In this document: positions 3,001 to 32,797 of the stretch, one piece after another
Position numbering within the stretch: position 1 is the first letter of the stretch
How the letters are laid out: each line of letters opens with the position of its first letter
Origin: a virus
Length of the DNA stretch: 53,602 nt
Virus record (IMG/VR): IMGVR_UViG_3300021964_000094
Coordinates: 1 to 53,602 of that record
Reading direction: 5' to 3' (one strand)
Notes under the pieces: generated by a model
The model's database searches: none
The model's input: the letters and a program-made list of their open reading frames with translations, nothing else
Told to the model about the DNA's origin: nothing
Position numbers and translations under genes: made by a program

Positions 3001-6000
3001 AGGAATTACAATAGTTGTTCCTGAGGTATACTTGATTAAGTTACCTTTATTATCTTTTTCTCCCCAGTCAACCCAGTTACCAGTTCCAAAAGTGGCCGAA
3101 GTTGGATCATCGTCATATGGCACATTGAATGGAAACCCTTGTACTTGTTCCCAAAACTCTGGAGATTGATTAGGAAATATTGTTTGATATGCTGAATATG
3201 CTGTAGCATCAGTTCCTGGTACTATGCCTGTTACAGTTTTTAAAACATTCCAGTATTGCGAACTGTTTTCTGGATACTTAACAACATCACCACTATCATA
3301 AGTTCTTGTAGAACTCCAAACACCTTTGTCAAATCCTGTATCTTTAACACAAGCATAAAAGAATCCATTAAATCTAACAATACTTCTAGACTTGTAACCG
3401 TTACCTGGCTGTACTGGAACTGCTGGACTTACAGAAGTGTTTTGTCTAAGTCTTACATTGTATACATCTTTGTTTTTTGTAACTGTAAGCAATGCTGATT
3501 CCGAAACTGGTCCACTTGGAATACCACTAATGTTATTAAATGTATCTGAACCTAAAATTCCGCCATTTTCGTCAACTGCTTTAACTGTAATAACAATATC
3601 GTTGTTACCTGTTCCTGTTGCTGGCTGGCCACCTACTCTTGTTCCTTGGATGTATAACTTGTCGCCTGGAGCATATCCAGTGCCTGCTGATCTAACTTCG
3701 ATGTCATAAGCAGGAATACCAGTCGATCTAGTAATATCAAACGTAGCATTTTGGCCGTCTGAACTAATGTCTGTACCACTAACATTCTCAAATAACTCAT
3801 CGTTCAGTCCGCTTGATCCATCAGCTTTTACTGAAAGTATTCCGCCAACATCGTCAACTTGATTAACTGTAAGAGTTACATCTCCGCTTGTTCCTTCAAT
3901 GCCTTCTAACTTTCCAATGTTAATAGACGATCCAAAAAATTCACTGTTTGCTTGTCTTGGACTTACTAAACTGTTTTTAAGTTTCCATTGTCCATTTGAA
4001 TATTCATAAATGTCTACTCCGCCTTGTTTGGCGTAACCTTTGTTTGCTAAAAATAATTCAGCACCAAGTGGATTCGCTTCTAATAATTCTACTGGTTGCC
4101 AGTCTTGGCTTGCTAAGTCGATTGTACTTCCGTCACCAAAGATTCTATTATTTGCTTTGTAAAGTTTACCAGCATATAATACAGTATCGCCCGGCTCATA
4201 GTCAGCATTAGTATCAAACTCTTCTTGATAGTTACTAGGAATATAACTTGCTTTCGGCGAACCTACAATTAACCATCTGCCGTCGTCACTTGCTGTAATA
4301 ACTTCAGCATACGCTCCGAGGTATGAAGGTTTTAGCCCGTCTTTAGGTGTTAAAATTTGTAAAGGAATAAGTCCTGTTTCACCATCTGAGTAAACAACAA
4401 CTGCTGAACTTCTTACTACATCACCGACGGATACCGGAGCACCTGGATTACCTACAATAGTTTGATTAAGTTGTGGAGCAAATGTTACAGCACTACCTGT
4501 ACCTGTAGGAAAAGCAATACCATACTCTGAAATTTGAGTTACGTTATACTGCTTGTTTCTCTGTACAACTTCCCAGCCGTTTGTGTTTTCAGATTTATCA
4601 ATGAAGACTTTTGAACCTGTAGGTAATTTAGCAAATCCATTGTCAATTAGTTCTTTGTAATCTGCTACTCTTACACTTTCAAAATAACTTACATAACTAA
4701 ATGAACTTTCATCTATAGTTGGTTCGTCTTTGAATCCAGCGATAGCAATAATAATCTTTTTAGGTTCAACTGCTGAAATTTGATAGAAGCCTGTAAGGCC
4801 ACTTATGTTATTAATTCCTACAATCTGTCCTACTTTAAAGTCATGTACTTTGTTTGTTTCTAACTCTACTCTATCAACATCCGGAACTGAAATACTATAA
4901 ATTAGTACATTACTAATAACGTATCTATATACGTTCCATGATCCTGGCTCAAAGGTTGTCCAAATATTATCGCCATGATTTATATCTGATAAAGGAATGT
5001 CGTTAACTAAGAAATCAAACAGACTGTTGCGGATAAAGTCTACATCACTATTAAAAATATATCCTGCTGAATTTTTAGCAACATCGTAAGTTTTTTGTGG
5101 AAGTGAAAAACTTGTATTTCCAAGCTGGTAATCAGCGTCTTTTAAAAGTATAAAATTTTGAAATTCATCTGATCTAAAAGAATTGCCATTAAGTAAAATA
5201 GGTTGTGGGTTTAACTTAAAGTTATTTGATTGTAATACAAATTCTGTTTCATCAATTTGATCTGTGCCGCCGACAGATCCCATTCTAAATGCCCATTCCT
5301 CATCTAGTACAATCTTATCATCGTCAACTTTACTAACTTTATCAAAAACTTTTTTGATAGCGTTGTTAGTTCCTTTCTCTCTACTAAATCCTTGGAACAG
5401 TTTAAACTGTGACACATCGTCCTCAGCAATTTCTTGTAGATAATTCCTTTGTTGGAAACCAACTGTGTGCTTGGCTAGTGTTTTTTGTGCCGAATTAATA
5501 CCGTCAACAGTTAGTTCGTAGTAGTCCTCAATTTGATTAACTCTAAAATCAAAGTTAGGAACTAATCCGCTTGTAGGATTGCTATCAAGTATAGACCATT
5601 TTGATTCATCAAAGGCTTTGCTACCTTTTTGGAATACTTTACTGACATAGTTATACTGCTTATATTGTACAATGTCACCTAGTTTATAATCTGTAAATTG
5701 CTTCCAAGAAAGTATATTAACATTATCAAATATAAATCCTGGGCTCGTATAATCGCCGTCCCAATCAACTGTGCGGAACCCCTTACTTTTAATTCTTTCT
5801 TGTCTGTAACCAGGTCCTTTGTCAAAAATAACATCATTGAACACTGTCTTGTCATCGAATATTGTTACATGCTCTTTTTGAACATAGTTGATCTCAGCAA
5901 AATAAATTCCTTCGGTAGTTGTTTCTGGAGAAATTAGTAATTCATTTTCTCCTCTGAAAATATCAATATCATTTGAATCTATTTTTGTACCGTCTGATCT

Positions 6001-20896: not shown

Positions 20897-21910
20897 ATGG
20901 CGCTATTTAAAAAAGCGGCCTGCTTCACTGATATCCACTTTGGGATGAAGTCCGGTAGTAGACTTCATAACAAGGACTGCGAAGATTTTGTAGAGTGGTT
21001 TATTGAAGAGGCCAAAAAAGAAAATTGTGATGTTTGTATATTTTTAGGTGATTGGCACCATAATCGTGCTACCACTGACGTAAGCACTATGAATTACAGT
21101 GTGAGTAACCTAGAAAAATTAAACAACGCATTTGATAAAACATATCTAATGCTAGGCAATCATGACGAATTTTATAAAGACAAAAGAGAAATACACAGTT
21201 TAGAATTTGCTAGACTATTTCCTAATATTGTCCCAGTTAATCATCCAATTACAGAAGGCGATGTTACGCTTCTTCCTTGGCTAGTAGGCGACGAATGGAA
21301 AAAAGTAAAAGATATTAAATCAAGATATATCTTTGGACACTTTGAACTTCCATTGTTCTACATGAATGCTATGGTTCAGATGCCTGATCACGGACAACTT
21401 CAAGCAGACGATTTTATTAATCAAGAATATGTATTCTCAGGGCATTTTCACAAACGTCAAACTAAAGGGAATATTACATATATGGGTAACGCATTTCCTC
21501 ACAACTACGCAGATGCGTGGGATGACGAACGCGGAATGATGATTTTAGAATGGGGCGGAACACCTGAGTATCGCAGTTGGCCTGATCAACCTGTTTATCG
21601 AACCTTTAAATTATCAAAGCTATTAGAAAATCCGGATCAACTACTAACTGGACGCATGCACTGTCGTGTTACTATTGATGTTCCTATTAGTTTTGAGGAA
21701 GCAAACTTTATTAAAGAAACATTTATGCCGCAGTATAACTTGCGTGAACTAATGCTGATACCTGAAAAAGTAGAACTTGAAGGCCAGGATGTTAAGCCCA
21801 TCGACTTAAAATTTGAAAGCGTTGATACTATTGTTGTAAATCAAATTACAAACATTGACTCAGAACAATACGATCAAAAACTACTATTGGAGATCTATAA
21901 TAACCTATGA
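20897..21910 (+). CDS. 47: Recombination endonuclease subunit gp47 (Mre11/SbcD-like)
   Basis: 337 residues, the usual size for T4 gp47 (339). The calcineurin-like phosphoesterase motifs appear in order: FTDIHFG near residue 9, FLGDWHHN near 50, MLGNHDEFY near 87, FGHFELP near 148 and FSGHFHKRQ near 183. These supply the Asp, Asn and His ligands of the two-metal site. With gp46 it forms the Mre11-Rad50-type complex that resects double-strand ends for recombination-dependent replication and, in T4, host DNA breakdown. It has its own sigma-70 promoter and strong ribosome site, and the gp46 start overlaps its stop (ATGA). All key motifs are intact. Confidence 0.95.
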   Translation: MALFKKAACFTDIHFGMKSGSRLHNKDCEDFVEWFIEEAKKENCDVCIFLGDWHHNRATTDVSTMNYSVSNLEKLNNAFDKTYLMLGNHDEFYKDKREIHSLEFARLFPNIVPVNHPITEGDVTLLPWLVGDEWKKVKDIKSRYIFGHFELPLFYMNAMVQMPDHGQLQADDFINQEYVFSGHFHKRQTKGNITYMGNAFPHNYADAWDDERGMMILEWGGTPEYRSWPDQPVYRTFKLSKLLENPDQLLTGRMHCRVTIDVPISFEEANFIKETFMPQYNLRELMLIPEKVELEGQDVKPIDLKFESVDTIVVNQITNIDSEQYDQKLLLEIYNNL

Positions 21911-23685
21911 TCAAAATTAAAAATCTCACAGTTCGTAACTTTATGAGTGTTGGTAATCAAACTCAAGCTATTGATTTTGATAAAGGAATGCTTACACTTG
22001 TGTTAGGCGAAAACTTAGATCTCGGCGGAGATGATAGCGGTGCTAGAAACGGTACCGGTAAAACAACTATCATTAACAGTTTAAGTTATGCTATCTACGG
22101 TATTGCTCTTACAAACATTAAAAGAGACAACCTTATTAACAAAATTAACAGCAAAGGCATGCTTGTAACTGTTAGTTTTGAAAAGAATGGCGTAAAATAT
22201 CATATTGAACGAGGACGTAAACCTAATATTCTAAAACTAAATGTTGATGGTGAAGAATATTCAGCTGATGATGCTGACGAATCTCAAGGTGACAGCAGAC
22301 AAACACAAAAAGAAATTGAAAAACTATTTGGCATGAGCCACGATATGTTTAAACATCTTATTGCTCTTAATACCTATACAGAGCCGTTCCTTTCTCTTAA
22401 AGCGAATGATCAACGTGCTATCATCGAACAATTACTAGGCATTACTATTTTGTCAGAAAAAGCCGATGCTTTAAAAGAACAGGTTAGAATTAGCAAAGAT
22501 TTAATACAACAAGAAAATACAAAGATTGAAACTATTAAAGTAAGCAATCAAAAAATTGAAGAATCTATTCAGAGTCTAGAACGCAAACAAAAAATGTGGC
22601 AAGATAATCATAGTAGCTCTGTTTCTGACTTGGATCAAAGTATTACACTGCTAGAAAAAATTGACATTGAAGCAGAAATCGACTCACACAAGTGTTTAGA
22701 AAATTATAACGAAAAGAAAAAACGTCTAGAAGAAGCACAACGGTGGATTGCTAATATTGATGCTGACAATATTAAACAAGAAAAAACTATTGCTAAACTG
22801 GAAAACGAAATCAGTTTGTTAAAAGAACACAAGTGTCATACTTGTGGACAAGATTTACATGATAAACAACAACAAGAAATTTTAAACAGCAAAGAAGATC
22901 AAAAGAAAGAAGCCGCACTACAAATTATTTCTAATAACAGTCAGTGGGAAGAACATACTAATGTAGTTAATGAAGTTGGAGAACTTGAAGTTTGTCCTCC
23001 AACACAATATGATTCACTTGAAGAAGCTGTTAATCATAGAAGCACACTTGCGAGTTTACATAAAGAATTAGAAAACAAAAAAGCAGAAATTAATCCGTAC
23101 AAAGAACAAATTATTGAACTAAAAGAAACTGCTTTACAAGAAATTAACTGGGATGCTGTAAACGATCTTACTAAAGTAAAAGAACATCAAGAATTCTTAT
23201 ACAAATTACTTACAAACAAAGACAGTTTTGTAAGAAAACGTATTATTGACCAGAACCTAAGTTACTTAAACATGCGCTTAACATACTATCTGAGCAGGAT
23301 TGGTTTACCGCACACCGTAGAATTTCAGAACGATTTAAGCGTCGTTATTACACAACTTGGGCAGGACTTAGACTTCGACAATCTCAGTAGAGGTGAACGA
23401 AATAGACTCATTTTATCAATGAGTTGGGCGTTCCGTGACGTTTGGGAAAGCCTGTATCACAGCATTAATTTACTGTTTATTGACGAATTAGTAGACAGCG
23501 GCATGGATTCTAGTGGAGTAGAATCTAGTATTGCTGTATTAAAGAAAATGACTAGAGAACGTGATAAAAACGTATTCTTAATTTCGCACAGAGACGATTT
23601 AGCAACTCGTGTTAATCAAGTTCTTAAAGTTATTAAAGAGAACGGGTTTACATCATACTCCAACGATGTAGAATTGGTGGAATGA
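21907..23685 (+). CDS. 46: Recombination endonuclease subunit gp46 (Rad50/SbcC-like ATPase)
   Basis: 592 residues, similar to T4 gp46 (560). Walker A GARNGTGKTT is near residue 46. Two coiled-coil arms flank the zinc-hook CHTCG near residue 309. The ABC signature LSRGERNRLILSMSWAF is near 491, Walker B LLFIDELVD near 523, and the H-loop FLISHRDDL near 560. It is the ATPase partner of gp47 in end resection and strand exchange initiation. Translation is coupled to gp47 by ATGA overlap and to the next small gene by another ATGA overlap. Every functional motif is present, so it should be active. Confidence 0.95.
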   Translation: MIKIKNLTVRNFMSVGNQTQAIDFDKGMLTLVLGENLDLGGDDSGARNGTGKTTIINSLSYAIYGIALTNIKRDNLINKINSKGMLVTVSFEKNGVKYHIERGRKPNILKLNVDGEEYSADDADESQGDSRQTQKEIEKLFGMSHDMFKHLIALNTYTEPFLSLKANDQRAIIEQLLGITILSEKADALKEQVRISKDLIQQENTKIETIKVSNQKIEESIQSLERKQKMWQDNHSSSVSDLDQSITLLEKIDIEAEIDSHKCLENYNEKKKRLEEAQRWIANIDADNIKQEKTIAKLENEISLLKEHKCHTCGQDLHDKQQQEILNSKEDQKKEAALQIISNNSQWEEHTNVVNEVGELEVCPPTQYDSLEEAVNHRSTLASLHKELENKKAEINPYKEQIIELKETALQEINWDAVNDLTKVKEHQEFLYKLLTNKDSFVRKRIIDQNLSYLNMRLTYYLSRIGLPHTVEFQNDLSVVITQLGQDLDFDNLSRGERNRLILSMSWAFRDVWESLYHSINLLFIDELVDSGMDSSGVESSIAVLKKMTRERDKNVFLISHRDDLATRVNQVLKVIKENGFTSYSNDVELVE

Positions 23686-23948
23686 GTACAGAAAGCCATG
23701 ACAAACTTATAAAAGCATTTCAAGAATACTTTAAATGGGCCGATAAGTTTGAGTATAGTGGTTCAGATGCCGCCGGCATTAAAGCACGATATTGGCTTTC
23801 AGAAATACGTAACTTCTCTAGTTTAAGACGAAACGAAATACAAGATAAAAGGCAACAACGAAAGGCAACCAGAAAAGGCGTCATAGGTAGACCCAAGAAA
23901 GTAAGTAATGCTGATGAAGACGAATCCAGCATGGACTTACCAAAATAA
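23682..23948 (+). CDS. Small basic conserved-looking protein after gp46
   Basis: 88 residues, start overlapping the gp46 stop (ATGA). I do not recognise a named family, though a similar short gene follows gp46 in some marine T4-like phages as far as I remember. It reads as a helical N-terminus (KLIKAFQEYFKWADKFEY), a KARYWLSEIRNFSSLRRNEI helix, and a strongly basic stretch (QDKRQQRKATRKGVIGRPKK) followed by an acidic tail. The 'GRPKK' run resembles an AT-hook-like DNA contact, so nucleic-acid binding is plausible. Coupling to gp46 suggests a role in replication or recombination, or in transcription; T4 gp33 is similarly small but no clear similarity is visible. Confidence 0.7.
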   Translation: MSTESHDKLIKAFQEYFKWADKFEYSGSDAAGIKARYWLSEIRNFSSLRRNEIQDKRQQRKATRKGVIGRPKKVSNADEDESSMDLPK

Positions 23949-24375
23949 ACCTATTGAATGTATTCCTGATGAATACGAAGGGTTTGTCTACCTCATCACA
24001 AACACACATACTGGGCAAAAATACGTAGGCAAAAAACTAGCCAAATTCAAAACTACCAAACCGCCACTCAAAGGCAAAAAAAATAAACGCAGAGGCACTA
24101 AAGAAAGCGATTGGAGAGACTATTGGGGCTCATCAGATCGTTTAAACGCAGATGTCCAAGCACTAGGCCCAGAAAACTTCACAAGAGAAATACTATACCT
24201 ATGTAAAGGTAGGGGCGAAATGTCCTACATAGAGGCAAGAGAACAATTTGACCGCCGTGTATTAGAGAGAGATGATTATTACAACGGTATTATTAATGTT
24301 AGAGTTGGCGGTTCAGACAAGTTACGACAGGCATTGCTAGAACATAGCATCAAGGCAAAGCAATCCAACACATAA
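23908..24375 (+). CDS. GIY-YIG-type endonuclease domain protein
   Basis: 155 residues from ATG 23908, overlapping the previous gene by 41 bases; ATG 23914 is an equally possible start. The segment GFVYLITNTHTGQKYVGKK matches the first two strands of the GIY-YIG nuclease fold, with the two conserved Tyr in 'VYLI' and 'KYVGK'. WRDYWGSSDRLNADVQALG, RGEMSYIEAREQFDRRVL and the closing YYNGIINVRVGG continue the fold: an Arg/Tyr helix, a Glu-containing helix and a final Asn. There is no C-terminal DNA-recognition module, so it is not a complete homing enzyme of the Seg type; stand-alone versions occur in marine T4-like phages. It could act on branched or host DNA alongside gp46/gp47. Domain call is good; biological substrate unknown. 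Confidence 0.75.
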   Translation: MLMKTNPAWTYQNKPIECIPDEYEGFVYLITNTHTGQKYVGKKLAKFKTTKPPLKGKKNKRRGTKESDWRDYWGSSDRLNADVQALGPENFTREILYLCKGRGEMSYIEAREQFDRRVLERDDYYNGIINVRVGGSDKLRQALLEHSIKAKQSNT

Positions 24376-24896: not shown

Positions 24897-26204
24897 ATGA
24901 AACTGAATCAATTAGAAAATATCGAACATCTAGATGAAGCACCACAAGGCATATTCAAAAGAATGGGCTTAAAAACAAAATCAGCTTTTGGAAGTGATGT
25001 TGCTAAAGGACAACTTCAATCAGGTGATGCAGCAAATAAACTAAAAAAAGAATATATGCTGTTTGTGGGGCGTATGGCAGGGAAAGTTGGTACAACAAAG
25101 CCAACAACAGATACACTTCTTGCGTTCCTAAAAAGCAAAGGTGCTGATACTAAAGCAGTTGCTGGCATGATTGACAAAGAGCTACAGGCTCTTGCGCCAC
25201 AACAGCAAGAACCAGTTTCAAATGAGCCTTCAGCTGAACCTGAAAAGACAGAGCCGGAAGTGGGTTCCGATACTGAGCTAGACAAACTTAAATCACAAAA
25301 TTCAACAGATCAAAATAACCCTCTCAAGCCGGGCAACAATACAACAAATATGAAACAAACAGATTTGGGTTTGGACAATCCGAATGATCCTCAAGGCGAT
25401 CTGTTTAAAAGTAATCCAATTCCGAGCATGTCTACTAACAATACTACTGTTACTACAAAAAGAAAAAAGACAGGTGGTAAAATAGCCGGAAAAACTTCTA
25501 TGACCAAAAATGCTATTAGAAAACGTAATAGTAGAAAGAAACCTGGAGATCAACTAGAATTACTATCAATGTACAGTGAACAATCGCAACGCTACAGAAA
25601 AAACTTTGAACGCATTGATTGGACACTAAAAGAAGATCAAGCATACTTTGACGCACTTGAATTTATGGGTGTTATGGAAGCTGAAATTCCAACAAAAGTA
25701 TTAGACAAAGTATTAAACAGTGTAGCAGTAGATTTAACAGAACCGGCTGCCGCAGATGTTAACGCACCACAAGATGATCAACAGTCAGGACAAGATGATC
25801 AACAGTCAGGTGCTGACAATGCTGGCACACAAAAGAAGGGTGGCGGCCTTTTAAAAGGCATAGGCAAAGCAGTTGGCGGCGTTTTTGACAAAGCCAAAGA
25901 TGGTGTACAGTCAGGCCTAGGTGATAATCCTGAAGATAAACAAGCCTCAAAGATTTTTGATCCAGATGACGAAAAAGGCACCGGACAGATGCGAGGTACA
26001 TTAAATTACCAGAACATCAGTAAAGAATTTCCGGGAATCGATCCTACAATGTTAAGAAGAAGTATGTCTAAAAGTTTACAAGGACAACCACTTACTAAAT
26101 CTGAACATGAAACTATGTCTTTAGCAATGACAGAACTAGTAAAGAAAAATCCTCAAGATACAGTTAAAGTTATGAACTTGTTTAAGCAAGCAAGGCAAGA
26201 TTAA
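24897..26204 (+). CDS. Low-complexity probable virion protein of unknown function
   Basis: 435 residues, not recognised. The N-terminus (KLNQLENIEHLDEAPQGIFK, then a helical segment KKEYMLFVGRMAGKV) is compact. Residues about 95-230 are rich in Gln, Asn, Pro, Thr and Lys, with a basic patch (TTKRKKTGGKIAGKTS; RKRNSRKKPG). A folded helix segment YRKNFERIDWTLKEDQAYFD follows, then two QSGQDD-type repeats (DDQQSG twice, near residue 293), a Gly/Lys segment GGGLLKGIGKAVGGVFDKAK and a helical C-terminus. It has a perfect late promoter and structured leader, so it is made late and is likely packaged or used in head assembly; basic low-complexity regions recall internal head proteins. Its stop shares bases with the stop of the convergent small gene. 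Confidence 0.75.
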   Translation: MKLNQLENIEHLDEAPQGIFKRMGLKTKSAFGSDVAKGQLQSGDAANKLKKEYMLFVGRMAGKVGTTKPTTDTLLAFLKSKGADTKAVAGMIDKELQALAPQQQEPVSNEPSAEPEKTEPEVGSDTELDKLKSQNSTDQNNPLKPGNNTTNMKQTDLGLDNPNDPQGDLFKSNPIPSMSTNNTTVTTKRKKTGGKIAGKTSMTKNAIRKRNSRKKPGDQLELLSMYSEQSQRYRKNFERIDWTLKEDQAYFDALEFMGVMEAEIPTKVLDKVLNSVAVDLTEPAAADVNAPQDDQQSGQDDQQSGADNAGTQKKGGGLLKGIGKAVGGVFDKAKDGVQSGLGDNPEDKQASKIFDPDDEKGTGQMRGTLNYQNISKEFPGIDPTMLRRSMSKSLQGQPLTKSEHETMSLAMTELVKKNPQDTVKVMNLFKQARQD

Positions 26205-26377
26205 AAGAAAGGAAGACCACTTTCTTTTGTGGTCTCCATATTTGATTTTACAATTTCTACTATAATTTCACGTTCTTCAGAACTTAAATTCATAGCTTCA
26301 GTAAACGAAAGACCCCCACGCATATACCATACGGATCGCATGGCTTCTGATTTGATTAGTTTTGCCTGGTCGTCCAT
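26201..26377 (-). CDS. Small -1-frame protein downstream of gp26 (frameshift extension or stand-alone 58-residue product)
   Basis: 58 residues from ATG 26377 to TAA at 26203-26201: MDDQAKLIKSEAMRSVWYMR, GGLSFTEAMNLSSEEREIIV, ending ETTKESGLPFF. The 'WYMRGG.S..EA...S.EER' pattern is protein-like. From memory, not verified, a similar short gene follows gp26 in marine T4-like phages; T4 has gp51 there. The frame stays open 18 codons upstream of this ATG (RTRLSQLKINDILAETKA) to a slippery site inside gp26, so the natural product may be a gp26 fusion. The internal ATG has only a weak ribosome site (GAG, 9 bases upstream) and begins right after the 3' arm of a stem. Its stop overlaps the stop of the convergent gene at the TTAA palindrome 26201-26204. 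Confidence 0.8.
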   Translation of the reverse strand: MDDQAKLIKSEAMRSVWYMRGGLSFTEAMNLSSEEREIIVEIVKSNMETTKESGLPFF

Positions 26378-26437
26378 GGCTTTCGTCTCGGCAAGAATGT
26401 CGTTAATTTTTAACTGCGAAAGCCTTGTCCGAAAAAA
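26378..26437 (-). promoter_or_regulatory. Programmed -1 frameshift signal (slippery site plus stem)
   Basis: On the minus strand gp26 reads GCG GAT TTT TTC GGA. This contains the X XXY YYZ heptamer T TTT TTC (26437-26431) in the correct phase. A spacer of 6 bases (GGACAA) leads into GGCTTTCG (26424-26417), which pairs perfectly with CGAAAGCC (26385-26378). The loop contains an inner stem GTTAA/TTAAC around the gp26 stop. A -1 slip enters the open frame of the small downstream gene. Heptamer, spacing, stem and open -1 frame all agree. Confidence 0.78.
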
Positions 26438-27375
26438 TCCGCTTGATCCAATGTTAAGCTAACATCCCATTCGTGCTTACACTCTTCATTATCACACACA
26501 GCATTAAAGCTAGCCATCTTACCACTTTTTTGTGATTTGTTTACAGCATCGTTGATAGTAGTAAACACTGCTTTGTCGGCTTTCTGTAAGAACTCTTTAA
26601 TAAATTCTGGATTATCAGTAGTACCTGCTGCACTTTCAACTTTGGTAACACATTTTACTGCTGTATCAAGTGTTAGATCAGTTAGTTTAATAAAACTTTC
26701 ATTAAACAAGCGTAATTTTTCATCTTCACCTAAAGACTCGTCATTGATGATTGAAAAAATTCTTTGATGCTCGAAAGTTTTAAGTGCTGTACTAGTAATT
26801 TCCTTATAAGTCATTGGACGTAAATGAACAACCATGTCGTTATTAATTTCTACAGAAGTAGCAAAATCAATTCCTAATAAGTTATCAAGTACGTTTCTTA
26901 AGTCCACAGACTTATCGTTTACAGTTTCGCATTTTGGACAAGTAGCACTGACATCCATTTCAACTCCGTATGTTGCCATTCTAATTGCTGTTAGAACTGC
27001 GTCAACATCCATACTTGGCATTTCCCAAGCATTTTTAATTGATGGAATACAACTTTGAATTACTTCAACAATAGCAGAACCGTTCATTAACGCATCTGGT
27101 GTTTTAAAAAGCAATTCGTCTCTTGCGGTCATTGCGTATACTGGGTGCTCGCCAGTAGTTGGTGTTTCTAAACTTCCCATGGGCCAGAATTTACCCTCAC
27201 TTGGAAATTTAACGTGAATCTTTGGCTGTCTAAAGTATTGTGCCAAAGGGTTTCCTGAAGCAGGCGCAACATTAACAGGTGCTTCTGGCACGGGTACTTT
27301 ACCTGCTTGTTTTGCCTGTTCTGCTTGTGCTTGTACAAAAGCAGTAGGATCAAATTGATTGTTATTTTCAGCCAT
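26410..27375 (-). CDS. 26: Baseplate hub/tail assembly protein gp26-like
   Basis: 321 residues. The middle resembles T4-like gp26 proteins: KIHVKFPSEGKFWPMGSLET, YAMTARDELLFKTPDALMNG, VIQSCIPSIKNAWEMPSMDV, AVLTAIRMATYGVEMDVSA. Two Cys pairs suggest zinc ribbons: CPKCETVND near residue 145 and CDNEECKHEWDV near 296. The first 60 residues are Gln/Ala/Pro-rich. It begins 33 bases downstream of a perfect minus-strand late promoter and is divergent from the tape-measure genes. In T4, gp26 with gp51 assists hub assembly. Position beside the tape-measure gene, the pattern TARDE..lktPD.l..G..i and the frameshift signal at its end fit a tail-assembly chaperone. A -1 slip after residue 315 would give a product of about 391 residues. 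Confidence 0.75.
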   Translation of the reverse strand: MAENNNQFDPTAFVQAQAEQAKQAGKVPVPEAPVNVAPASGNPLAQYFRQPKIHVKFPSEGKFWPMGSLETPTTGEHPVYAMTARDELLFKTPDALMNGSAIVEVIQSCIPSIKNAWEMPSMDVDAVLTAIRMATYGVEMDVSATCPKCETVNDKSVDLRNVLDNLLGIDFATSVEINNDMVVHLRPMTYKEITSTALKTFEHQRIFSIINDESLGEDEKLRLFNESFIKLTDLTLDTAVKCVTKVESAAGTTDNPEFIKEFLQKADKAVFTTINDAVNKSQKSGKMASFNAVCDNEECKHEWDVSLTLDQADFFGQGFRS

Positions 27376-27452: not shown

Positions 27453-30026
27453 ATGGCAAAAGATACAGTAGAAATTCTAGGCGGACAATTAGACGGAGCA
27501 ATACTTCAAAATGCCGCATCTGAAGCAACACTAAAAGAGCTTGTAGCCGCCATTAGCGGTAATAGAGGCGGTTCAACAGGCGGTGGCTCAAGTATTTTGG
27601 GTAGGACACCTGCTGGAATGATTGCTGGCGGCATCGTAGGTGCTGTTGGCGGAGCAGTTAAAGGTGCTGTTAATCAAATAGGCAATGTTACTGGTGCCGC
27701 TGGTGCGTTTGCTGGGATGATGTTTAAAGGTGAAGGAAGGATAAGTTCCTACACTAAAGTATTAAACAATCAAGTTATTAGCCAATTACCACTAGTTGGA
27801 AGATATTTAGGTGCTGTTGGCGGCGCAATATCAGGAACTATTCAGGAATTTGAAAGGTGGAATAAGACTCTACAGAGTATAACTGGTACTGGTGCTACAT
27901 TTAATAACAGTATCATTCAAATGATGAATGCTAGTGCTAGAACTTACATGTCATTGGATCAGTTCTCGGCGTTTGTACAAAAAAATAATAGAACATTTAT
28001 TGCTCTTGGTAATTCAGTAACTGAAGGTGCTGTAGCATTTTCAAATTATTCATATGATGTTTTAAAAGCAAGTGGTCCTGCTAGAACGACATTGATTCAA
28101 ATGGGTTACACTGTTCCTCAGATTAACCAACAACTAGCTGATTACTTAGAAAACAACTATCGAGGAATAGTTGCAGAAAGAATTAATTCAAAAAACTTAG
28201 GCGATTCTTTTGTTAACTATCAAATGTATCTACACAAGTTAACTTCGATAACAGGTAAGAATGCCGAACAGTTGACTCAAGAAATGAGTTCTGTACAAAA
28301 CGATACTGCGTTTAAATTAAAACTTAATAAGTTAGACAAAGACGAACGTAAAAAAGTTAATATGGCTCTTGCGAATTACACAGCCATATATGGAAAAGAT
28401 GGTGCTGAAGTGTTTAAAGCACTATTCTTAGGTTTAACACCAGCAACTGATGCTGCAGCATACTTTTCTATGTTATTCCCACAAGCAGTTAAGGAAATGA
28501 GAACAACGCTGGGCTTCGCACAAGACGGACTAACTTCAATAGCACAATTTGAAGGTATAACATTAAAAGAAAGAGCAAGAATATTAAAACATTCTGCATC
28601 TCAATTAGATAAGTTTAGTGGATACCTTAAAGCTGGCGCGGCAGGAATTGAAGAAGCGGCTAAACTAGCAGGTGTGAGTAAAGATGTAGCAAACTATATT
28701 GCTAAGACAGGTAAAGACTTTTCAAAAATGTCTCTAGAAGAAATTGAGGAAATGCTTGCCAAGGCAGATGCCGAAGTAAAGAAAAGTGAAGAATTAACAG
28801 AGATATTAAGATCATTTGAAACAGCAATGGGAGATTTTAAAGTAGGGTTCCTAGATGTTATGACAGCTGATGGAGGACCGTTACATCAATTCTCAGAAGC
28901 TATGAAAGGCAAAGACCTTCCAAATAAAATTAGACAGTTCGGAAGAGACTTTGGATATTTTGTTACAGATACAATTCCAGTAATAACTAAATTCTTTGCG
29001 AAACTGGCCACTGACGAAGGTCGAAAAGAATTTGGACTTCGTATAGACAAAATGGTTTCTAAATTAGGATTGTACCTACTTGCTTATCTTCCTAAGGTAT
29101 TTGGCGGCGATGTTGATCCAAATTTACAATCAAACTTAGCTAAAATTGACGCCGCATACCAACCAAAAATTGATCAAGCATCTGCCGGTGCTGACATGGC
29201 CGCAACTAGATTAACAAGAAAGCCATTTGAACTTCCAAACGAACAACAGTCTGGACCACCAGGTACCGGTGCGTCTACGGCAGGTGGAAAGATTTATCAA
29301 GACCAAGCTGGAAAGATTAGAAATAAACCTATATCAAATGAACTACGTACTATACTAGCTACAGCCGCAAAGGCTGCCGGTGTTGATCTAAGAATTGAAA
29401 GTGGCGGACAAATGTCAATGGCCGATTATGCCGCCGCAAGCGGAGTTAAAGAACAACGAGGCGACGATTATTATCTAGATGGAAAAAAAGTAAGAACAGG
29501 AAAAGAAAGACACGACGATGGCGGAGCTGCAGATTTAGATGTGTATCTACCTGACACTAATACGCCTTTATCGATCGGTCATCCAAGCTACATGAAGTTT
29601 CTTAAAGCTGCAAAAGAAGCTGGCATTACAAATGTAGGAGCAGGTGAAGGATACATGTCTACAGCAGTAGGCACTAGAATACACATGGGTATTACTGGAA
29701 ACGCCGCAAAATGGGGAGGCGATAAAGGCCCGTATGCTGAACTGGGCAAGGCTGGATTTAGAGAAGGAACGCTAGGCACAATGGGTTCGCTGTTTGCTAA
29801 TATGGGCGGAACGCAAGAAGTACATGGAGAAGAATCGATTATGTCTCCATCAGAGTTAACAGCAGAAATGGTCGGCGCTGCCGAGTATTCATCTGCCGGT
29901 GTATCACAACTAAATGAAAATTTAAATGTTTTAATTAATCTCACTAATCAGCGCAATATGTTAGCATCTAAAATATCAGATAAACTAGCAGGAAGATCAA
30001 AAGACTTAACTGCGGTGTTTGGATAA
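27453..30026 (+). CDS. Tape-measure-like tail protein with C-terminal M15-type peptidase signature
   Basis: 857 residues. It opens with a short EATLKELVAAISGNRGG segment, then a Gly/Ala-rich hydrophobic stretch typical of tape-measure proteins (PAGMIAGGIVGAVGGAVKGA, near residues 54-73), and a long helical body to about residue 560. Near residues 620-760 is a domain with GKERHDDGGAADLDVYLPD (His and Asp of the H-x6-D type), NVGAGEGYM and GTRIHMGITG; together these match the M15-type (LAS family) zinc peptidases that cleave peptidoglycan cross-links. The end has the tape-measure hallmark EVHGEESIMSPSEL. It should fix tail length and help open the cell wall during injection. It has a perfect late promoter and lies beside its paralog. 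Confidence 0.75.
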   Translation: MAKDTVEILGGQLDGAILQNAASEATLKELVAAISGNRGGSTGGGSSILGRTPAGMIAGGIVGAVGGAVKGAVNQIGNVTGAAGAFAGMMFKGEGRISSYTKVLNNQVISQLPLVGRYLGAVGGAISGTIQEFERWNKTLQSITGTGATFNNSIIQMMNASARTYMSLDQFSAFVQKNNRTFIALGNSVTEGAVAFSNYSYDVLKASGPARTTLIQMGYTVPQINQQLADYLENNYRGIVAERINSKNLGDSFVNYQMYLHKLTSITGKNAEQLTQEMSSVQNDTAFKLKLNKLDKDERKKVNMALANYTAIYGKDGAEVFKALFLGLTPATDAAAYFSMLFPQAVKEMRTTLGFAQDGLTSIAQFEGITLKERARILKHSASQLDKFSGYLKAGAAGIEEAAKLAGVSKDVANYIAKTGKDFSKMSLEEIEEMLAKADAEVKKSEELTEILRSFETAMGDFKVGFLDVMTADGGPLHQFSEAMKGKDLPNKIRQFGRDFGYFVTDTIPVITKFFAKLATDEGRKEFGLRIDKMVSKLGLYLLAYLPKVFGGDVDPNLQSNLAKIDAAYQPKIDQASAGADMAATRLTRKPFELPNEQQSGPPGTGASTAGGKIYQDQAGKIRNKPISNELRTILATAAKAAGVDLRIESGGQMSMADYAAASGVKEQRGDDYYLDGKKVRTGKERHDDGGAADLDVYLPDTNTPLSIGHPSYMKFLKAAKEAGITNVGAGEGYMSTAVGTRIHMGITGNAAKWGGDKGPYAELGKAGFREGTLGTMGSLFANMGGTQEVHGEESIMSPSELTAEMVGAAEYSSAGVSQLNENLNVLINLTNQRNMLASKISDKLAGRSKDLTAVFG

Positions 30027-30037
30027 GGAAATAAGTA

Positions 30038-32797
30038 ATGGCTGATCAAGTAACATTTATACACAATGCGCTAGGACAGAGTACTATCAGTAATATGGCT
30101 ACTGAAGCAACCTTGAAAGAGTTGCTGAATGCTATTGGTGGGGGGAAAACAGGATCTCAAAATAAAAATAGTTTAGCATCTTTAACGAATCCATTTAACA
30201 GTTTAACTAGAAGAGCAAAGTCGTTAGAAAACGGAATTAAAGCAACAATGAGACCATTTACTGGTTTCATATCCATGCTTGGCAAAGGCGAAGTACGCAT
30301 GTCAGCATTCGGAAAACATCTGAATGAATCTGTTGTTTCTAAACTTCCGGTAGTAGGAGGACTGTTTTCAGGAGTCGCAGGTGTTGCTATTGCTGGTGTT
30401 AGCATTCTTGAATCTTGGAACACTGAATCAAAAAAACTTGCTCCAGCTGGAGCAACTTTTGGCAATAGTATGCTTGAGTTTTCTCAAATAGCTGCACAGA
30501 CTAGATTATCATTAGATGAGCTTAATACAGTAGTTGGTCAAAATGTTGAAAAATTTGCCGCATTGGGTCCAAACATAAATCAAGGTATTAGAAATTTTAA
30601 AGATTTTTCGAACGCATTTTTTAGACCTGGTAATATTTTAAATGAGAGATTACTCAATATGGGTTATTCATTTAAAGATATTAATGAACAAGCAATTGAC
30701 TTCTTATATTATTCACAACGTACTTCAGCAGATTCTATTTCAACAAACGTAGATGTACAAAAATCATTCTTTTATTACATGAAAAATTATGATGCATTAA
30801 CAAAACTGTTTGGAGCATCTAATAAAGCTCTAGACGATGCTTCGGCAAAAATATTAAAAGATTCAATACTTCAAATAGCACTTAATAAAGAAGATAAAGA
30901 AGTTGGAGAAAAAACAGCAATCGGTGCTAATACTCTTGTTAGATTTTTTGGAGAAAGTGTAGCAGAAGTATTTAAAGCCCAAATGTTTGGAATGGAAGTG
31001 TTTGGCGGTGCTTCAATGGATCTTAATTTAATGTTAGGCAACGATCTTAGACCTATAGTAAGAAGATTAACTGAAGCCGCCAAAGATAAAGATGTTACAG
31101 CAGAAGATATGACTGACATTTCAGTTGATGTGATAGCTGAAGCATTAGTTTTAACCGCAGGCAAACTAGACGAAAGAAAGAATATGATAGAATTAATGTC
31201 AGTGGCACCTGATGGAGCAAAAGGCATGTATGATTCTATCGCTCAAGCGGCTGATAATGTTATAAGAAAAGATCTCACAGGTAAAACCAAAGATCAAGTT
31301 AAAGCTATGATCCTCGAAGAATTAAAGCAACAAGATCGTGCTGAGACAATTACCGAAATTATTAGGGCAATGGAACAAGCGGCAAGATACTTCAAAGGTG
31401 AATTTCAAACTGTGCTAATTGAAGAACTTAAAGGCATGGGCGTCGCCTTTGAACAATACGACCTTCCAGGACTATTCCGTAAAGCAGGCGAGTGGGCGGC
31501 TGATTGGACTGTTAAAGCATGGAGCCAAATACAATCATTCTTTAGAATGATGTCGGACTCTGATGGTAGAGATTACATTGGATCTGCTTTTAGTAACATG
31601 ATGGGCTATTATGGAAATAAATTTACAGCAACGATAAAAAATTTAACGGCTCTCGCTGTTCAATCAGTGGTGCCAGAAAGTGTTAACACCACAGTCTCTG
31701 GTATGAATGATAGACTTAGAGAAAAATGGGGCTGGGATATTCCGCTTATCCGTACCAAGAAAGATAGTTTAATTGAGGATCAGCAAGATGAATTTTCTTA
31801 TTATGCTGGAAAAGGAAGAGCAGAACGATTTTATAACCTAGCTCAACTACCTGACAATAGAGCTTCGTTTGATCCTAATTCAACTAAAGGTATAGTAGAA
31901 GGCACAGTAGTATACCCAGATTACGTATCAATGGGTGTTGATGATCTAGGACCATTAGTTTTCAAAGACGGCAAGTGGCAATCACAACGTGCTGTAAAAA
32001 TGAGAGAAGGGTTAGACGCAATGTACAAAAACCCTTGGGCTATGGGGGGCATGGGCTACGGCGGCGTTTATGGCGCAGAACTAGGTGTTTCATCTGCAGT
32101 AGATGATGTTAACGATCTACTATCTTCGGCCGGAAATACAGCTAGATTGAACATGCTAGGACAAAAAACTGGTATCGGCGGCGGCAATCTAAAAGCATTA
32201 GTTATGACTAGCTCTGGTCACATGAAAGATGTAAACGCAAAATATGCTGATAAATTTCAAACAATGATTGACATGCTTGAAGGAGGCATGGGTCTTAAAA
32301 TTACTAAATTAACAGCCAAGGGCGACGGATTAGTAGGGCTCCAGATACAAACTGAACAACATGGCACTAAATGGTTTGATAGTTTATCTGAAGTTGAAAA
32401 GGCTGTTTTGTTCAGAGGAATGATGGATATTGGACTACTTGATCATGGTGAATATGAATTCTCTCAAGCAGTAGAACGACAAACACAATCGTTGAACGAC
32501 GGCATAATGTCTGCGTATAAATTATACGGGGGACCACATGCTGATATTGACAAATTTAGAACAGGTACACTAGAAACAACAGGCAGACTGTTTAACGATT
32601 TTGGAAGAAAACGACAAGTAGCACTGTCCGGCGATAAAGCAATTTTAACTAAACCGCAGTTTGATACTATTAAAGAAGGTGCCGCTCAGATTCCTATGAA
32701 AGATCTTGTAAATTCTGTAAATAGTAGTGTTCAGGAAATGATACGTATAACCAAACTGGAAATTGCTCATAATAGGACCATGTTAAGTGTTGCGTAA
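30038..32797 (+). CDS. Second tape-measure-like protein, paralog of the upstream gene
   Basis: 919 residues, 11 bases after the first tape-measure gene with a GGAAAT ribosome site. It aligns with the upstream protein along the N-terminal third: MATEATLKELLNAIGGG against ASEATLKELVAAISGN; GKGEVRMSAFGKHLNESVVS against FKGEGRISSYTKVLNNQVIS; and LAPAGATFGNSML against ITGTGATFNNSII. A hydrophobic segment VVGGLFSGVAGVAIAGVSIL is near residue 105. The C-terminal hallmark QVALSGDKAILTKPQ parallels EVHGEESIMSPS of the first. The peptidase motif H-x6-D is absent; the middle has Trp/Tyr-rich unique sequence. It is either a second tape measure or a hub-associated partner that copolymerises with the first. 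T4 has a single tape measure, gp29. Confidence 0.7.
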   Translation: MADQVTFIHNALGQSTISNMATEATLKELLNAIGGGKTGSQNKNSLASLTNPFNSLTRRAKSLENGIKATMRPFTGFISMLGKGEVRMSAFGKHLNESVVSKLPVVGGLFSGVAGVAIAGVSILESWNTESKKLAPAGATFGNSMLEFSQIAAQTRLSLDELNTVVGQNVEKFAALGPNINQGIRNFKDFSNAFFRPGNILNERLLNMGYSFKDINEQAIDFLYYSQRTSADSISTNVDVQKSFFYYMKNYDALTKLFGASNKALDDASAKILKDSILQIALNKEDKEVGEKTAIGANTLVRFFGESVAEVFKAQMFGMEVFGGASMDLNLMLGNDLRPIVRRLTEAAKDKDVTAEDMTDISVDVIAEALVLTAGKLDERKNMIELMSVAPDGAKGMYDSIAQAADNVIRKDLTGKTKDQVKAMILEELKQQDRAETITEIIRAMEQAARYFKGEFQTVLIEELKGMGVAFEQYDLPGLFRKAGEWAADWTVKAWSQIQSFFRMMSDSDGRDYIGSAFSNMMGYYGNKFTATIKNLTALAVQSVVPESVNTTVSGMNDRLREKWGWDIPLIRTKKDSLIEDQQDEFSYYAGKGRAERFYNLAQLPDNRASFDPNSTKGIVEGTVVYPDYVSMGVDDLGPLVFKDGKWQSQRAVKMREGLDAMYKNPWAMGGMGYGGVYGAELGVSSAVDDVNDLLSSAGNTARLNMLGQKTGIGGGNLKALVMTSSGHMKDVNAKYADKFQTMIDMLEGGMGLKITKLTAKGDGLVGLQIQTEQHGTKWFDSLSEVEKAVLFRGMMDIGLLDHGEYEFSQAVERQTQSLNDGIMSAYKLYGGPHADIDKFRTGTLETTGRLFNDFGRKRQVALSGDKAILTKPQFDTIKEGAAQIPMKDLVNSVNSSVQEMIRITKLEIAHNRTMLSVA

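Follow-up and report, generated by a model that had tools for sequence, protein, structure and literature searches.

The gp26-like gene of the virus analyzed here very probably gives rise to two tail assembly chaperone isoforms, the longer of which would be made by a programmed -1 ribosomal frameshift near the 3' end of the gene. The window, meaning the whole stretch of DNA that was analyzed, is IMG/VR record IMGVR_UViG_3300021964_000094, positions 1 to 53,602, and it carries T4-like genes for a portal, a major head protein, a baseplate wedge, and a hub lysozyme-like protein. A first-pass annotation had described a gp26-like gene ending in a slippery heptamer, a 6-nt spacer, an 8-bp stem, and an internal ATG, and had read the arrangement as a -1 frameshift signal. 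Each of these elements is present as described, on the minus strand (Table 1), and the predicted slip product of 391 residues instead of 321 is borne out, as 315 shared residues are followed by 76 from the -1 frame. The slip site is read in gp26 phase as GA[T TTT TTC], with six codons remaining before the gp26 stop. It fits the X XXY YYZ pattern of bacterial and phage -1 frameshift sites, and the stem, 6 nt away, falls within the expected distance of about 5-9 nt. The frameshift reading is supported by conservation of the heptamer, a coding -1 frame that lacks a start codon of its own, and stem covariation in relatives. Direct support exists for the heptamer with its phase and conservation, for a -1 frame that is coding, for conservation of the stem, and for the matching of cyanophage extensions to the gp51 family; we infer slippage itself, its frequency, and the chaperone role of the products.

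Table 1. Features at the 3' end of the gp26-like gene, in window coordinates
Feature	Position	Strand	Basis
gp26-like gene, 321 aa, putative short form; residues 1-315 common to both products	26410..27375	-	PF12322 T4_baseplate, E 1e-15; phrog_150 baseplate hub, E 2.4e-21
Slippery heptamer T TTT TTC	26431..26437	-	Sequence; T TTT TTY in gp26 phase in 182/182 relatives
6-nt spacer GGACAA	26425..26430	-	Sequence; relatives' stems equally spaced
5' arm of the predicted stimulatory stem, GGCTTTCG	26417..26424	-	Fold; clade comparison
3' arm of the predicted stimulatory stem, CGAAAGCC, 31-nt loop	26378..26385	-	Paired in 8/8 window-clade members; p = 0.005 vs synonymous recoding
gp26 zero-frame stop TAA, within the stem loop	26410..26412	-	Sequence
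-1 frame extension, 76 codons (RTRLSQLK...GLPFF), then stop at 26201-26203	26204..26431	-	Conserved family A4; coding-like evolution just past the gp26 stop
58-aa ORF, gene-caller style call	26201..26377	-	ATG at 26375-26377; TTA in L008, CTT in L009; without Shine-Dalgarno motif

TTTTTTC is common in the AT-rich window (24 copies; about 30 expected), so the heptamer alone means little, and we dropped its bare count as evidence. A peptide search of IMG/VR with the window's gp26-like protein as the query returned 80 loci, 78 of which have the 3' end, and in all 78 T TTT TTC lies in gp26 phase 10 to 40 nt ahead of the stop. The T TTT TTY form recurs in 80/80 loci retrieved with a cyanophage gp26 query and in seventeen jumbo phages, with a TTTTTTT form in two (the jumbo set includes RaK2, PBECO4, GAP32, BF, Munch, Atu_ph07, Phosso, and a PA5oct relative). 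It is also found in S-RIM8, S-SCSM1, Vibrio phages Bakedbeans and R11Z, Stenotrophomonas phage Moby, and Melnitz-1. Searching with one Vibrio gp26 sequence added no loci. The pooled set comprises 182 gp26-like genes (82 representatives at <70% identity), every one of which has T TTT TTY in gp26 phase, and none of the search peptides covers the slip site. Among 52 disjoint sequence pairs of relatives, the heptamer shows 0 substitutions. The alignment of relatives proposed in the first-pass annotation thus found the heptamer kept throughout, and the contrary pattern it had named, a heptamer broken by synonymous changes beside a small protein retained with a strong ribosome site, did not appear.

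One way to account for such conservation is that the heptamer is kept only for a required Phe-Phe and the overlapping Arg, and that slippage is not functional. Phe-Phe is indeed invariant in the protein alignment, but just 16 of the 232 other Phe-Phe pairs in the same loci take the T TTT TTY form, 93% being coded in other ways, and the extension frame is coding although it lies beyond any zero-frame reading. We regard this explanation as scarcely credible. Transcriptional slippage on the T6 run, which would yield mRNAs of altered length and a fusion at the RNA level, is highly improbable: a homopolymer run exists, reaching seven or more T in three relatives, but six T is short for polymerase slippage, and both the final C in 179 of the 182 genes and a stem at fixed spacing are what would be expected of ribosomal slippage.

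Evolution of the -1 frame points to translation without an independent start. In the 52 pairs, the stretch from the gp26 stop to about +60, which lies ahead of the window's ATG, has 287 changes at the third position of -1 frame codons, compared with 117 and 90 at the other two. Codon changes in this frame over the same region are 178 synonymous and 150 nonsynonymous; reading on in the old zero frame gives 26 synonymous versus 263 nonsynonymous changes and many stops. All 38 aligned extensions have Arg immediately past the slip, Leu4 is nearly invariant, and there is no conserved start codon able to place this Arg. Judged from these patterns, selection at the protein level acts on the -1 frame ahead of any conserved start. 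All relatives keep this frame open for 55 codons or more, or as far as the contig runs, except Synechococcus phage S-SCSM1 (L101, ~3180-3375), in which the heptamer is present, the -1 frame is shut after four codons, and gp51-like sequence lies in the +1 frame, representing either a sequencing indel or a different arrangement.

These data bear on the possibility that the small ORF is a gene in its own right, whose translation starts at the internal ATG (26377) or follows reinitiation past the gp26 stop, with the heptamer and stem incidental. Such ORFs are annotated as genes in named jumbo phages, and Pseudomonas phage Cygsa01 (L103), which is without the heptamer, has an overlapping TAATG suited to coupling. 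However, selection on the -1 frame begins upstream of any conserved start, and the window's ATG, which has no Shine-Dalgarno motif, is replaced by TTA and CTT in the near relatives L008 and L009, respectively. Across the 82 representatives, the first -1 frame ATG falls anywhere from 1 to 46 codons past the slip and is absent in three, and 73 of the 82 have no Shine-Dalgarno-like motif before it. An unconserved ATG, its variable position, and the general lack of a Shine-Dalgarno motif make a separate 58-residue gene very unlikely, and the 58-aa ORF most probably encodes the C-terminal portion of the frameshift product. Cygsa01 and Ackermannviridae phage STML-13-1 (L105) carry the small domain downstream, in the -1 frame, and lack the heptamer; these lineages may use coupling rather than frameshifting. 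Annotations of the named jumbo phages (L083-L098) either list the extension as a hypothetical protein of its own or miss it, amounting to systematic misannotation.

We next consider the stem. In the window, the fold is better than that of dinucleotide shuffles (z score, -2.9), and the 8-bp stem is stronger than expected from synonymous recodings of the same extension (p = 0.005). Pairing is kept in every one of the 8 window-clade members, whose arms are nearly invariant and so show no covariation. A 13-bp stem with a 42-nt loop, again at 6-nt spacing, is shared by 22 relatives that are more distant; compared with the window clade, its 3' arm is displaced 21 nt downstream, and 90.9% of its cells are paired. 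Six of its pairs show double-sided changes, in 28 cells; shuffled controls have a mean of 8.1, with 0/500 reaching 28, and slid controls give at most 8 such cells and 57% pairing. The covariation that the first-pass annotation had proposed looking for is therefore found in these 22 relatives, the window clade itself being near-invariant. Of the two stems that it had drawn, the 8-bp stem stands and the second, GTTAA/TTAAC, does not: this inner stem is present in the window but missing from clade members L003, L008, and L009, and we rejected it as a functional element. An Rfam search returned a chance match only.

Significance against synonymous recoding (p <= 0.05) is reached by 4/4 window-clade representatives and 70% of 33 others in the group, and by 36 to 37% of jumbo isolates and cyanophages. 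The structure is accordingly under selection in the window's group, and these data do not support its universality.

In the mechanism that we propose, most ribosomes would read the gp26-like frame to its stop and release the 321-residue short form. A minority would pause at the stem, slip by -1 on T TTT TTC, and bypass the stop, adding 76 mainly helical residues to give the 391-residue long form. The lambda G/GT and P2 E/E' pairs suggest, by analogy, that the short form would coat the tape measure protein while the tail is assembled and that the extra domain of the long form would link the complex to the tube or baseplate.

Protein family searches connect the two predicted products to T4 genes 26 and 51. 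In T4 gp51, residues 3-248 match phrog_150 and residues 147-246 match phrog_634 (hub assembly catalyst), and the latter family is also matched by the -1 extensions of cyanophages (E 9e-30) and of Vibrio phage R11Z, a Schizotequatrovirus (E 3.5e-21). Given both matches, T4 gp51 looks like a gp26-like domain and the frameshift-reached part joined in one frame, and T4 gp26 looks like the short form. The window's own extension gives a weak profile match to the gp51 family (E 0.018, probability 2.5%), located in the corresponding C-terminal position; at the level of sequence its link to gp51 is positional only, homology being undetectable. It is predicted to be helical and had no match in a fold search against viral models. 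The predicted fold of the gp26-like protein (mean pLDDT, 87) resembles other T4-like hub assembly proteins, one of which is its best named predicted-structure match; searches of solved structures by sequence and by fold gave nothing usable. Given the gp51-family extensions, the comparison with T4 genes 26 and 51, and the cited chaperone literature, the two products most likely serve as tail assembly chaperones, one short and one long. For the gp26-like protein, "tail assembly chaperone, short form" is a better description than "gp26 structural hub protein."

The divergent neighbour of the gp26-like gene (27453-30026) has a sub-threshold match to TMP_3 (E 0.026) and a weak match to the tape-measure-like neighbour in RaK2 (E 0.008). 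This gene and the adjacent 30038-32797, both on the plus strand and encoding 857 and 919 aa, are paralogues with 25% identity over 537 residues (BLASTP E 2e-44), and neither product has a confident family match. On the other side of the gp26-like gene, a SegE-type GIY-YIG endonuclease (23908-24375, plus strand; PF19835, E 4e-35) lies a short distance downstream from a metallophosphoesterase/AAA pair (20897-23685) similar to the gp47/gp46 recombination nuclease.

Because T4 has both forms as separate genes, the frameshift arrangement may be ancestral and the T4 two-gene state derived, a polarity that we infer from gene arrangement. A fuller proposal, for which we see the case as evenly balanced, is that frameshifting is ancestral in the T4-like supergroup (here marine and freshwater relatives, cyanophages, Schizotequatrovirus, and RaK2-like and other jumbo phages) and that the essential gp51 of T4 arose by duplication of gene 26 and in-frame fixation of the frameshift product. 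Under the same proposal, the slip in the window's broad group would be driven by a previously undescribed stem whose 5' arm is fixed at 6 nt and whose 3' partner has moved seven codons between clades. A covarying stem with a relocated 3' arm offers a natural experiment on the requirements for stimulatory structures, and one protein family with two solutions for making its isoforms renders the need for a set short:long ratio directly testable. The frameshift also implies a correction to the annotation of marine T4-like and jumbo phages, in which the long form is split into a "baseplate hub" and a small hypothetical ORF.

The first-pass annotation knew of no established frameshift in gp26 of T4-like phages, a remark that calls for correction. 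As cited in PMC10885494 and PMC12846349, Vladimirov, Gautam, and Davidson (2022) name genes 26 and 51 as the tail assembly chaperones of T4-like phages, and slippery signals of the poly-T type in chaperone genes of T4-like phages are referred to as known (PMC12846349); gp26 and gp51 are also listed as hub assembly chaperones in a T4 review (PMC3004832). As judged from these secondary citations of the 2022 work, the frameshift proposed here is a further case of a known type. T4 genes 26 and 51 share the gp26 family (PF12322, phrog_150) and make short and long forms with a common N-terminal part, and the cyanophage extension belongs to the gp51 family (phrog_634). T4, however, has two separate genes, 26 for the short form and 51 for the long, whereas the window phage would use one gene and a -1 slip; T4 genes 26, 51, 27, and 28 and RB43 gene 51 contain no slip site into a chaperone extension.

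Chaperone isoforms are often produced by frameshifting (PMC12846349), and tail assembly chaperone frameshifts are described for lambda G/GT, P2 E/E', and other long-tailed phages (Xu, Hendrix, and Duda 2004, as cited in PMC10885494). Unlike the lambda/P2 type, the window gene does not immediately precede a tape measure gene in line with it; large putative tail genes lie opposite. Phage Adele (Vandenendeviridae/Andersonviridae) has a -1 frameshift at GTTTTT in its chaperone gene (PMC12846349). Like the window, Adele has a poly-T site and a -1 frame open for about 200 bp whose ORF is misannotated as a separate hypothetical gene; the phage families and the motif differ, with the window's group having T TTT TTY and, in many relatives, a covarying stem.
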